Below are positions 182 through 5,494 of a stretch of DNA of 28,333 nt, in pieces. The notes beneath the pieces are model-generated. The model did not search any database and had not been told where the DNA came from. It saw only the letters and a list, made by a program, of their open reading frames with translations. This DNA is from a virus, in IMG/VR virus record IMGVR_UViG_3300023116_000258, positions 1 to 28,333 of that record; one strand, written 5' to 3'. Within the stretch, counting starts at the first letter, position 1; each line of letters begins with the position of its first letter. The position numbers were made by a program, and so were the translations under genes.

Positions 182-3100
182 TTATTCTCGCCAATCGAGT
201 ATTGTGTTAATTCTGCCTTTGTAATCATTTTTTACAGGTTTAGGTCTTGTATTTGCTTTAATTTCACCTGCTTTATCCCATCTTGCTACTTTTCCGTATT
301 GACCACCAAGATGTTCTCTGTTGCTGTAATATTCTTTAGCACCCACTTTGTTCCAGAATTTTTTGCCATCTGGCGTTATGTCGTAGACTTCTAGTTGAGG
401 AGATACTGAATATGGATCTGCTTTAGATGACTTTTTCATACTGTTTATAAACTTAGTACCCATACCTTTGTTTTTGTCATCAATCATAATATTGATAAGT
501 CCAGTAATAGGTTTTTTATCGCCTACTGTTTGTCTGACAAGTCTAGTTTTACCAACTTCTTTACCTGTAGATTTATCAATGATGTTGTACCAATCATCGC
601 TGGTGTTTTCGTAATTTGTTAGTTTTTCACCTCTAGTTAAATATTCTAATTGAAACTCATCATTTTCTAAACCAAACTTGTTTCTTCCAACTAAACTTAT
701 TGTATTTGGATCTTCGTAATCATATGGTCTAAATGCATTTTCTGGTTTTACTTTGTTTGCACCCTTACTTACTTCATCTAGTAAACCTTTGGATTTGTTA
801 GTAAGATAATTAGGGTTTGTAAACTCATCTGGGAGTAGTCCTATCTTTTGATCTGCAAAGATTGTATCTTCTACTCCTGCCTGTCTATTCTTTTCTCCAA
901 ACTTACCAAAGTTTAACCAAGAGTTTTGACCTCTAGTCTCTGTTGCCAATGCTTTTTGTGCTAATGGTGAATACATAGATGAGTGTGCGATAAATGCGTT
1001 TTCTTCGCCACTTGCTCTAAATCCAACACCTTCTTTAGCATGACCAAAATAATCGTGTACTGCTCTAAATATGTCGTTTGCAGGTGCTATTTCACCATTG
1101 ATTCTAAACTCAGTATCTCTAAGTAATGGATTCTCTGTTACATCAAACTCTACATCGCTACCAAATCCTTGTTTAGTTGGGAAGATGTAAAGATGATTGT
1201 TGTTAGTAATATCGTCTATTGCATCCCATGGATTAGGATAAGGATCAAAGTCTTTCGGATAATATTCAACCTTAAGACCATTGTCTAGCATTACTTTATA
1301 CTGCTCAAGTGTTTCGTCTATTAGTGCGTTGTATGCTTCTACTACTTTAGGATCTCTAGGATTATGCTCCATTTCCTCAAATGCATTAGCAACCTTTGTT
1401 GAGTATTCTTCATCAACCTCTACAAATTCATTGACTGGTTTGTACTCAATACCTTTTTGTTCTGCGTATTGTCTTGATTGATCCTGAATTATTGGACTTG
1501 CTTTTGCAGGATTCTCTCTTCCTACATCTCTTGGTAGACCTACAAGAGACCCGTCTGTTTCTCTTTCTTTATAATACCTCTGATATTCTGGTTTGCGTAT
1601 GACATCTTCTTGCGATACCATGCCAAGGATTCCTCGTACGCTTCCTTCGTCTTGTAGTCCTGTTGTTGTGGTTTTTTGAACATCATCGTCTCCTATTTTA
1701 CCCAATAAAGATACATTTTCTGGATCTAAACTAATTAATCTTTCGTTACCATCTTTAATAGTATCTATTCCATGATACTTAAAGAAATCAGCATTAAATT
1801 CGTTTGGTGTAAAACTACCTCTTGCTAATTTATCTTTTAAGAATTCCTTATGTGTATATGTAGCATTAGGGAATAGTTCATCTACAGAATCTATCATTCT
1901 ATTTATTTGTGCAGGATCTGGATTGTTATAGTCTAATATTCCACCTACTTTTGTTTCTAACTTGTAAATATTGTCTCCAAACTCACCAGTAGTAAGATCT
2001 AATAATGAGTTTTTGATTTGTGGTGCAGAATGTATGCCTTTTGGTAAACCACTACCACCATGTATTGGATCTCTTATTTCTAACTTACCGCCTTCTATTT
2101 CACTTGATGGAGATGCGTGATAAGTTGTAATCGTGTCTCCTTCTTTTATATCTTTAAAAGATTTGACATCTTCGCCTAAGTTCGTTACATCATCAAATCT
2201 AACTATTGCATCTTCTTTTGATACATTCTGGAATGCAGGTAATAATCCTTGTCTTTCTAATTCACTTAAATTAAATCTATCTTGCGTTTCAAATGCTTCT
2301 GCTTCACCCGCTAACTTTTTATAATTCTCAAATCCTTCTAGTCTTGCTTTTTCACCTAGTGATGCATATTCCCAATATAGATCTTGATTAGATTCTTGTA
2401 GTTGCCTTAATTCTTCTGATGCGTTTCTATATGCTGTTTGTCTATCCATGTCTTTTGGATAACCAATATCTTCTAAATCTGAATCACTAATATATTCAAA
2501 ACGATTAGATGCTTTATTGATAAAAGGTATTAATGCTTGGACTCTTTCAGTTCCCTCATCAAACTTTCTTTTTACTTCAGCAGGATAACCTGTATTCATT
2601 ATTAATGAGGTTTCGTTCCTTTGATTTCCACCTCTAGCAGTACCCTCTATTCTTTGTATTGCATGTTGGATTTCATGTGCTAAATATGATTCATAGGTTT
2701 TTTTATCATCCATCTTGGTAGGATTCATCTCAATCAATTGACCATGCATAGGATGATCACCATGAAATACACCACCAGTTCTTTCTGGTAGTTGATACTT
2801 AAATGGTGCTACTTTTAATTCTCTTAATTCTGGATATGTATTGAATAGTGTTGGGTGTTTAATTACTTGCTCTAATGGGCGAAGGTTTAATGGATTTTTT
2901 GGCACATCATCTAATGTTAGTTCCATTTTAGAGTCATCAAACTCATATCGCCATTTATCATCAAGACCTCTAATCAACCCATGTGTATTCCATATTTGTT
3001 CTGGACTCGCACCTTCTGCTTCCATCTTCTGTGCTTTATCAACAAGATCTAGTTTGCCAGTTCTTTCTAGTCCAACCAGACTTCCAAACATTTCACTTCT

Positions 3101-3847
3101 GTTTGACATTTTTGTTTCTGGAAGTTGCCTAGATGCTTTATCAACAAGATCAGCAAATCCTGATTTATCTGCAAGGTTCTGTAGTTTTCTTAATCCACCA
3201 ACAGTTAAATAAGAACCACCCAATACCATACCACCTGTATCTACTGGTCTTTCATACAATGCTTTCTTAAAACCTTCCCATGATCCAAAGTCATTTACAA
3301 TGCTTTTTGCTACTGCATCTGCCATTGCTATATCTTCTTTGTTCCACTCTACACCCGTTATGTTTTGCATTACACCAGATGTAAGATTCAATCCTGTTTG
3401 TACTACATCTTCTGGTTTAGATGCCATCTCTAGTATTCCTAGATTAACTTCTGCTATGTTTTTATCTAGGTTACTTATCTGTTTGTTATATGCATCACCA
3501 TAATCAGTAATATCTGATTCACTAATTAAAGGTGTTTGATTAGTATATTCACCACCACCTATAGCAAACTTGCCTTTATATGGTGCTGTAGGCATTGCTT
3601 CTACTTCTTGTCTCTTTTCCTCTACTCCAAGAATACTTGATCTCATTTCACTAGGAAGTGAGTAGAATGCACTTACTGGATTGTTATTGTATATAAGGTT
3701 TGACGGATCAATATTTAAAAGATTGAATCCTTCTGATGCAGGTTGAGTTATTTGTCCAAGTACACCTGATTGATATTCGTTCTTACTTCCAAATTCATCA
3801 AAGTCTCTATCTGGGTATATGTAATCAAATATGCCTAGTTTTGCCAT
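182..3847 (-). CDS. Large polyvalent protein: zincin, ART-like, His-rich and GNAT-like domains
   Basis: A 1221-residue multi-domain protein. The start is the ATG that shares one base with the terminase stop (TAATG); the upstream extension to 3889 would need an ATT start. Seen: a zinc-metallopeptidase motif HEIQH at about residues 391-395 with EG six residues on, as in polyvalent-protein zincin domains. At about 574-720 is a segment opening TTYHAS and ending in a YHGID/ERLISLDPENV-type stretch, resembling ADP-ribosyltransferase-like domains of polyvalent proteins. At about 925-985 is a conserved block with HDYFGH, GEENAF and TETRGQNSW, which may bind metal. At about 1067-1190 is a GNAT-like fold, with NKGMGTKF matching the acyl-CoA loop and a GKKFWNKVGAKEYY ending. 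Such proteins are thought to be delivered with DNA by phages and conjugative elements and to act on host targets. The enzymatic activities here are inferred from motifs only. Position after the terminase implies late expression. Confidence 0.8.
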   Translation of the reverse strand: MAKLGIFDYIYPDRDFDEFGSKNEYQSGVLGQITQPASEGFNLLNIDPSNLIYNNNPVSAFYSLPSEMRSSILGVEEKRQEVEAMPTAPYKGKFAIGGGEYTNQTPLISESDITDYGDAYNKQISNLDKNIAEVNLGILEMASKPEDVVQTGLNLTSGVMQNITGVEWNKEDIAMADAVAKSIVNDFGSWEGFKKALYERPVDTGGMVLGGSYLTVGGLRKLQNLADKSGFADLVDKASRQLPETKMSNRSEMFGSLVGLERTGKLDLVDKAQKMEAEGASPEQIWNTHGLIRGLDDKWRYEFDDSKMELTLDDVPKNPLNLRPLEQVIKHPTLFNTYPELRELKVAPFKYQLPERTGGVFHGDHPMHGQLIEMNPTKMDDKKTYESYLAHEIQHAIQRIEGTARGGNQRNETSLIMNTGYPAEVKRKFDEGTERVQALIPFINKASNRFEYISDSDLEDIGYPKDMDRQTAYRNASEELRQLQESNQDLYWEYASLGEKARLEGFENYKKLAGEAEAFETQDRFNLSELERQGLLPAFQNVSKEDAIVRFDDVTNLGEDVKSFKDIKEGDTITTYHASPSSEIEGGKLEIRDPIHGGSGLPKGIHSAPQIKNSLLDLTTGEFGDNIYKLETKVGGILDYNNPDPAQINRMIDSVDELFPNATYTHKEFLKDKLARGSFTPNEFNADFFKYHGIDTIKDGNERLISLDPENVSLLGKIGDDDVQKTTTTGLQDEGSVRGILGMVSQEDVIRKPEYQRYYKERETDGSLVGLPRDVGRENPAKASPIIQDQSRQYAEQKGIEYKPVNEFVEVDEEYSTKVANAFEEMEHNPRDPKVVEAYNALIDETLEQYKVMLDNGLKVEYYPKDFDPYPNPWDAIDDITNNNHLYIFPTKQGFGSDVEFDVTENPLLRDTEFRINGEIAPANDIFRAVHDYFGHAKEGVGFRASGEENAFIAHSSMYSPLAQKALATETRGQNSWLNFGKFGEKNRQAGVEDTIFADQKIGLLPDEFTNPNYLTNKSKGLLDEVSKGANKVKPENAFRPYDYEDPNTISLVGRNKFGLENDEFQLEYLTRGEKLTNYENTSDDWYNIIDKSTGKEVGKTRLVRQTVGDKKPITGLINIMIDDKNKGMGTKFINSMKKSSKADPYSVSPQLEVYDITPDGKKFWNKVGAKEYYSNREHLGGQYGKVARWDKAGEIKANTRPKPVKNDYKGRINTILDWRE

Positions 3848-5130
3848 TAAACAACACCTGCTAAGTTTCTTCTGATTGGTTCGCCCCAATTACTTGTGTT
3901 TTCACGATAACCAATTGCTAAATATCTAAATGCATCTGCACCATGAGATGCCCAATCGTGTCTTGGTCTTAAACGCCAAGTCTTACCATTCTCATCCCAA
4001 TCACGGGAATAATTTACCAAACAATCAATTCCCTTCTCTGATTTTACCTCATCAAACCAACATCGTGTAAGCATTGATCTAACTGCTTGTATACCATCAT
4101 CAATAGCAAGTTGTGGTGCTATCTCTACTTGTCTAATACCTAAGTCTGCTAATACTTCTAATCTACTCATACCAGAACCAAGTTCTTTTACTCTAACATC
4201 ATGTGGCAATATATGTTGATCATACACATATCCTTTATCTTGTAAAACTTTTGCATAATGATCTAGTCCTACACCAGATGCTTCATAATAATCAATTAGA
4301 TGTACTTCTGTTCCAATAAACTGTGCAAACCATATAGAAGTAGAATCTCCAATACCTAAGTCCCATGCAGTAATAACACCTTTAGCAGGATTGTATTTAA
4401 CCTCTCTTATTCTTCCTTCTGCTTTTGCTTCTCTCATTTCTGCACTATAGTATGCACCTTCTGAGAATGTTAAGAAGTCTCCCTCCCATATGTGATCATA
4501 GAAGTCTGGTCTTGTTTCTTTATCATGCAATCTTTCATCGGAAAGAACTTTAGGAAACCAGTTATTGTCAGACCAATTAAGAGATACTATCTTTGCACCT
4601 GCGGGAGGATTCTCTCGAAACCTTTGATGTGTTGCAGAGTATTTACTTTCTGGATTCCATGTAACCCATATCTCTGACTCTTGTTCACGAACAGTAGGAA
4701 TTAGTTTTTGCCATGCCATATCAGAAACATTCTCTGCTTCATCTACCCATGCTAATAATATTCTTGCCTTAGACTTTATTGCATCTAATGATTTTCTAAG
4801 ACCAACAAAGACATAATGTATATTACCATCTCTTGATCTTATGTATCTTTCACCACACTCATAATACTTATCTAAGAATGGTACTGCCTTAATTGCTTGT
4901 TTAATCTCTTCTAATGATGAATCATCTAGTGAGTTCTGAAACTCTCGTCCACAAAGTATTTGTCCAGTCCTACCAGAGTTACCCCATTGATAACCTCTGA
5001 TTGCTGTCATCAAAGCAAAGGTTCTAGTCTTTCCTGATCCTCTACCACCATAAGCACCTCTGTATCTTGCATTACCCTCAAATACAGGTACTAACTTATC
5101 TGGTATCTGGATCTGTTCTTTAATCTCCAT
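3847..5130 (-). CDS. terL: Terminase large subunit (packaging ATPase/nuclease)
   Basis: The DNA-packaging motor: it hydrolyses ATP to pump DNA through the portal and cuts the concatemer. With the ATG at 5130 it is 427 residues, usual for PBSX/P22-type large terminases. Seen: Walker A GGRGSGKT at 28-35, Walker B ending VDEA at about 129-132, a coupling-like TWNP motif near 158, and nuclease acidic residues in WDLG (D257), HILPHD (D311) and HGADAFRY (D399). I chose 5130 because a longer version would need a TTG at 5145; ATG 5130 overlaps the small-subunit gene by 11 bases, as expected for coupled terminase genes. The stop overlaps the start of the polyvalent gene by one base. Confidence 0.95.
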   Translation of the reverse strand: MEIKEQIQIPDKLVPVFEGNARYRGAYGGRGSGKTRTFALMTAIRGYQWGNSGRTGQILCGREFQNSLDDSSLEEIKQAIKAVPFLDKYYECGERYIRSRDGNIHYVFVGLRKSLDAIKSKARILLAWVDEAENVSDMAWQKLIPTVREQESEIWVTWNPESKYSATHQRFRENPPAGAKIVSLNWSDNNWFPKVLSDERLHDKETRPDFYDHIWEGDFLTFSEGAYYSAEMREAKAEGRIREVKYNPAKGVITAWDLGIGDSTSIWFAQFIGTEVHLIDYYEASGVGLDHYAKVLQDKGYVYDQHILPHDVRVKELGSGMSRLEVLADLGIRQVEIAPQLAIDDGIQAVRSMLTRCWFDEVKSEKGIDCLVNYSRDWDENGKTWRLRPRHDWASHGADAFRYLAIGYRENTSNWGEPIRRNLAGVV

Positions 5131-5494
5131 CAGGTCTAACACCAACTAATTCTATTACTGTTGGTTTCATAGATCCATCGCTTGAACTGATGTCTGTTTC
5201 TATCCTGTCAGAGTAACCATGTTTAGTTAGCATCATCTTTGTAGTAGAAGCATTAAATTCGTTTGATAGACCGCCATTTATGAGTCCTCTTGCCTGTTTT
5301 GTTAATACCTTCTTATAGATGTCGGAAAACTCATCATATTTGTCCTTCCAATCGTAGACTGTATCTCTATGAATATCTAGCGTATCTGCTAATCCTTCAA
5401 CGCTTGGTACAAAGTCTCCATGCTTCCTAAAGTTCTTTAAATAGTCTCTTGCTATATCTAATAGTTCTTCACTATATTTTGTTGGTCTTGCCAT
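5120..5494 (-). CDS. terS: Terminase small subunit
   Basis: A 124-residue protein that recognises the packaging site and hands DNA to the large subunit. The N-terminus (MARPTKYSEELLDIARDYL) and following VEGLADTLDIHRDTVYDWK form a helix-turn-helix at about residues 30-50, as in Sf6 gp1-like small terminases. A helical region follows (KKVLTKQARGLINGGL) and a disordered tail. It starts in a TAATG overlap with the preceding small gene and has a GGAGG-type ribosome binding site. Gene order small-large terminase supports the call. Cos or pac type packaging cannot be decided from the sequence. Confidence 0.9.
   Translation of the reverse strand: MARPTKYSEELLDIARDYLKNFRKHGDFVPSVEGLADTLDIHRDTVYDWKDKYDEFSDIYKKVLTKQARGLINGGLSNEFNASTTKMMLTKHGYSDRIETDISSSDGSMKPTVIELVGVRPDGD

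Follow-up and report, generated by a model that had tools for sequence, protein, structure and literature searches.

The polyvalent proteins of phages described by Iyer et al. (2017, PMC5512222) are long multi-domain late proteins that have been proposed to constitute a delivered set of effectors, and LPD23, zincin and GNAT-like domains are found among their modules. HEXXXH peptidases also occur in these proteins, and DdrB of phage P1, which bears a zincin, is processed prior to packaging (PMC5512222). The 1221-residue protein described here shares with them its length, multi-domain organization and late position, as well as LPD23, a predicted zincin and a probable GNAT-like domain. It differs in containing a domain of ~230 residues with an HDxFGH motif, and a zincin together with this domain is present in none of the 78 other viral HDxFGH proteins (0/78). 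The HDxFGH domain itself is shared with PHROG 3170 (mycobacteriophage cluster C1 gp100-like proteins), although there it corresponds to a separate 434-residue protein and here it is one module of a protein of 1221 residues.

Organization of the polyvalent protein gene

The window is the whole of IMG/VR record IMGVR_UViG_3300023116_000258 (28,333 bases). It encodes an SU10-type portal (E = 1.5e-188), and an SU10-type adaptor is encoded downstream in a sister contig; the gene of interest, placed between the terminase large subunit gene (terL) and the head-tail genes, is therefore assigned to the late head-tail module of an SU10-like phage. A preliminary description of this DNA placed a 1221-residue gene at 182–3847, and both its coordinates and its length are borne out; ORF analysis puts it on the minus strand, the plus-strand frame across this interval being full of stops. 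Its ATG overlaps the terL stop codon by one base (the last base of the stop). The features are as follows, in plus-strand coordinates.

182–3847, minus strand: polyvalent protein gene, 1221 residues, stop codon included; open frame with ATG at 3847 and relatives in five IMG/VR contigs
3847–5145, minus strand: terL, the upstream context gene, from the ORF list, with its terminase identity read from the sequence
2918–3055, minus strand: LPD23, residues 265–310 (Pfam PF18838, E = 6.1e-13, above its cut-off)
2243–2890, minus strand: predicted zincin-like metallopeptidase, about residues 320–535, with invariant motif residues and phage relatives
2663–2677, minus strand: HEIQH motif, residues 391–395, from the zincin alignment
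1643–2194, minus strand: segment first called ART-like, residues 552–735, with one distant relative
818–1516, minus strand: HDxFGH domain, about residues 778–1010; phrog_3170, large family, AlphaFold2 pLDDT 96
1040–1057, minus strand: HDYFGH motif, residues 931–936, with H931 and H936 invariant in 113/113 sequences
185–760, minus strand: probable GNAT-like C-terminal tail, residues 1030–1221, placed by a switch point and by weak GNAT matches of the sister tail

LPD23 scores 48.8 bits against a curated cut-off of 27 in a Pfam search of the 1221-residue protein, and it precedes the zincin. The zincin had been recognized from its HEIQH motif, and its site is intact: none of H391, E392, H395, E515 and E517 varies among the 34 zincin sequences aligned, such that the alignment predicts both the HExxH motif and a later Glu ligand (E515). 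Phage relatives of the zincin part are large proteins, mostly unnamed, although some are annotated as structural. LPD23, the zincin and HDxFGH thus place at least two distinct effector-type domains in one polypeptide, encoded in a single frame next to the terminase gene within the late module, and the earlier designation as a polyvalent late protein stands; its assignment to the type of Iyer et al. 2017 (PMC5512222) is well supported. A multi-domain alignment intended for modelling one large structure was set aside, as its zincin and ART-region rows were 13–20% identical and evidently misplaced.

The preliminary description also proposed that residues 552–735 are ART-like. A YHAS sequence at the start and GIDTI at the end of the segment look ART-like by eye, but a clear strand-2 Tyr is absent. 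Neither the segment nor its only distant relative has a Pfam match, the segment is not matched by ART-PolyVal (PF18760) even at E 10, and it has no match among PDB sequences. The ART assignment finds no support in these searches, and the segment is left unassigned.

The HDxFGH family and its chromosomal neighborhoods

The HDxFGH domain matches phrog_3170 (E = 7e-21), a PHROG of unknown function, with relatives in cyanophages, mycobacteriophages and Rhodococcus phage E3. The family extends to at least 592 viral contigs and to 113 stretches of bacterial and archaeal genomes. Most phage copies of the domain are embedded in long proteins (median ORF about 1390 residues among 78 loci, 21 of which have ORFs of 500 residues or fewer); chromosomal copies are often proteins in their own right, of about 220–290 residues, a form that can be purified and assayed. 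An alignment of 113 sequences with pairwise identity below 85% contains ten invariant residues (N924, R928, H931, H936, G947, E948, H955, E970, Q974 and K1001), each either polar or glycine and kept across phage and cellular members; D932 varies once. The HDYFGH/TETRGQNSW block singled out in the preliminary description is real, far beyond chance, and forms the core of this domain.

AlphaFold2 predicts the fold of the phage domain with a pLDDT of 96.0 and a pTM of 0.93, and that of a Chryseobacterium homologue with values of 91.9 and 0.90. The fold is found in 21 viral proteins of BFVD with E <1e-3. Proteins of 146–206 residues at BFVD ranks 20–29 (from phages LKA1, shl2 and Scott and Vibrio phage 1.204) weakly resemble the HDxFGH core and are possibly minimal versions of the fold. 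Common in phages, strictly conserved and confidently folded, the domain is covered by no LPD or other Pfam model and is unnamed in both Pfam and NCBIfam; its profile has no PDB sequence relative, and we found no open-licence paper on HDYFGH, DUF3293 or the type B cluster described below. The earlier statement that the block has no nameable function thus holds for every library tried, and the family, its invariant residues, a confident fold and cellular neighborhoods are now established.

A neighbor of the AhcY family (S-adenosylhomocysteine hydrolase) is present at 15 of 49 standalone chromosomal HDxFGH loci, in two cluster types and several phyla, a count in which the genomes were chosen by similarity and are not a random sample, and in which related genomes are not independent. 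The two types are located as follows.

Type A three-gene cluster: loci L108, L111, L112, L114, L116, L117, L118 and L124, in Bacteroidota and in Alpha- and Gammaproteobacteria
Type B cluster around the HDxFGH gene: L126 7986–14373; L154 4825–12151; L161 4492–12805; L165 4677–13002

Type A contains an AhcY-like gene, a gene with the HDIFGH form of the motif and a DUF3293 gene, and is found in Bacteroidota, Ruegeria and Enterovibrio. HDIFGH and DUF3293 are fused in one protein in the BD1-7 clade, and no DUF3293 gene is seen alongside at the Chryseobacterium locus. The AhcY-like products of type A are shortened paralogues in which some of the canonical motifs are retained. The cellular form of HDxFGH is very rare and type A genomes are sporadic, with only the search-centre genome matching strongly in each of two orders (1/246 and 1/248), and the cluster members tested have no PADLOC match.

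The type B cluster is present in Streptomyces, Micromonospora and one gammaproteobacterium, and includes genes for a canonical AhcY, a homocysteine S-methyltransferase, a SAM methyltransferase, a Cys/Met PLP enzyme, a class-V aminotransferase and an MFS transporter, not all of which are visible at each locus. It looks like an uncharacterised biosynthetic cluster. A third group of 26 Micromonosporaceae loci (L128 and 25 others) has the HDxFGH gene without an AhcY neighbor. The gene there adjoins a divergently transcribed N6 DNA methylase gene (Pfam N6_Mtase in L128) and a kinase-like gene, a pairing that may be plain vertical synteny. Phytohabitans suffuscus has a second HDxFGH copy (G014:C1:6306929–6307518) that is split over two reading frames and is perhaps a pseudogene. 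No AhcY homologue is located near the 78 viral HDxFGH loci, so this cellular partner is not common to the phages.

Candidate chemistries of the HDxFGH domain

Aromatic amino acid hydroxylases have an iron-site motif of the form H-[DE]-x-x-G-H. The HDxFGH motif fits this form (PF00351; bacterial examples compared), and the invariant E970, a candidate ligand, is 34 residues after the motif, with the corresponding Glu at about 40 in the hydroxylases; the residues before the motif differ. Tryptophan hydroxylase 2 ranks first in Foldseek searches with both HDxFGH models, and hydroxylases account for some two thirds of the list for the second (Chryseobacterium) model, although all of the matches are insignificant (best E 0.14) and the motif letters themselves may drive the ranking. 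The models and their Foldseek matches give TM-scores of 0.12–0.21, and VIA-align finds none at Z ≥2 with either model. An hhalign comparison with the hydroxylases scores 30.5 against a maximum of 23.6 in 200 shuffles, but the score falls to the shuffle level once H-[DE]-x-x-G-H is masked, leaving no profile likeness beyond the motif, and PF00351 is not matched by the 101 HDxFGH members among the best 25 of 54 families listed. Since the profiles agree in the motif only and no structure superposes, the domain is not filed under the aromatic amino acid hydroxylases, although it may work like their iron site. That it is a distant mononuclear-iron oxygenase with such a site, hydroxylating a small molecule or a side chain, is a doubtful but substantial possibility.

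The other reading, a zincin-like hydrolase whose motif is an extended form of the HExxxH type, as in some polyvalent proteins and in the MATCAP peptidases, is the weaker of the two and on balance quite improbable. The HEXXXH peptidases already reported in polyvalent proteins offer a precedent for it, HDxFGH has two His five residues apart as do the MATCAP/QEGLA peptidases (PF08014), 7 of the 101 members weakly match Pfam MATCAP (best E 6e-5), and the helix-strand-helix order predicted ahead of the motif helix would be compatible. However, 112 of 113 sequences have Asp where the catalytic Glu would be, there is no QEGLA motif, and a rebuilt MATCAP profile aligns with the weakly similar N-terminal helices only and not with the active site; the hhalign probability against MATCAP is <1%, and neither Foldseek list contains a peptidase. 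Membership of MATCAP was rejected on the HD residues and on a likeness lying outside the active site.

Proposed role, delivery and tail exchange

The explanation that we favor, with a confidence a little short of even, is that of a late polyvalent protein, probably virion-borne, that carries a metal-dependent HDxFGH enzyme tied to SAM-cycle chemistry and an exchangeable tail. The SU10-like tailed phage would join LPD23, the zincin, the segment at residues 552–735, the HDxFGH domain and the GNAT-like tail in one product that is most likely carried in the particle and delivered into the host along with the DNA. The family of the zincin suggests that it probably cleaves either the polyprotein itself or some protein of the host. 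The invariance of its residues and the motif suggest that HDxFGH is most likely a metal-dependent enzyme in which H931, H936 and a neighboring carboxylate (E970 or E948) would bind the metal, and it would probably act on a small molecule of SAM/methionine-cycle chemistry or in a pathway which that chemistry feeds. This substrate class is proposed because S-adenosylhomocysteine hydrolase and other genes of the SAM/methionine cycle are repeatedly found next to the free-standing homologues of bacteria, and the link is a new lead that provides the first concrete substrate class for HDxFGH. Counting against the explanation as a whole are the lack of AhcY at the 78 viral loci and in the Micromonosporaceae group, the failure of the superposition and profile tests to connect HDxFGH, apart from its motif, with an enzyme of known chemistry, and the lack of the zincin and HDxFGH combination in other phages. 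A far more speculative and improbable extension is that HDxFGH represents an undescribed metalloenzyme family acting on SAM, S-adenosylhomocysteine or a related metabolite, which phages would carry in the virion so as to interfere, early in infection, with restriction or other host functions that depend on SAM. The effect would be like that of the SAM-destroying enzyme of phage T3, with the difference that HDxFGH would be delivered with the DNA. If phages do deliver HDxFGH, a new chemistry would be added to early infection.

Virion delivery and an anti-defence role of the 1221-residue protein are plausible hypotheses. PADLOC matches no known defence gene to this protein, to the cellular HDxFGH relatives or to their partners. 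Relatives sharing one domain are annotated as 'structural protein' in Rhodococcus phage E3 (gp205, an HDxFGH protein) and in Pseudomonas phage 8P, and a relative in phage AF comes after internal virion protein and lysozyme genes. Packaging is indicated only by such annotation and by gene position, and the processing of the P1 zincin protein DdrB before packaging offers a precedent for a protein that is not injected, acting instead as a late maturation or structural factor whose domains function in assembly or are remnants. We consider this unlikely, as the strict conservation of catalytic-type residues does not fit remnants, and the AF gene order and the E3 and 8P annotations speak for packaging.

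The C-terminal end was earlier described as GNAT-like. Four GNAT models are hit by the homologous tail of sister contigs, each with a score short of its curated cut-off (best E 7e-4), but none is hit by the tail of the window, which carries KNKGMG where the acetyl-CoA loop of GNAT enzymes has the pattern (Q/R)xxGx(G/A); a GNAT-like tail is probable from the sister matches. Five IMG/VR contigs are 99.5–99.7% identical in DNA to the window as far as plus-strand position ~777 (residue ~1024), shortly past the HDxFGH domain. Beyond this switch, which is exact to the base, the five share a different tail, with no difference among them in the 261 bases compared. The two tail versions are homologous yet clearly different, with a single alignable DNA stretch at 75%. 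Unless the window contig is chimeric, these comparisons show that the last domain has been swapped between close relatives at a domain boundary. A chimeric assembly joining two related phages at ~777 is quite possible, if not the reading that we prefer, since the window alone has its version of the tail while five other contigs share the alternative, and an exact switch would also suit such a join. The window tail is however a homologous full-length reading frame that closes with the sequence of the alternative, which is what a natural allele would show, and exchange of the tail between phages remains our preferred reading.

In Rhodococcus phage E3 the gene directly after gp205, gp206 (L010 7346–8605), is annotated as an aminotransferase. 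Its product has no Pfam match and by eye appears to contain GNAT and ART-like parts, and the aminotransferase label is likely a misannotation; a parallel with the cellular class-V aminotransferase was rejected, there being no similarity between them. If the reading of gp206 by eye is right, GNAT and HDxFGH are paired in two unrelated phages, consistent with the delivered effector set proposed for polyvalent proteins (PMC5512222).
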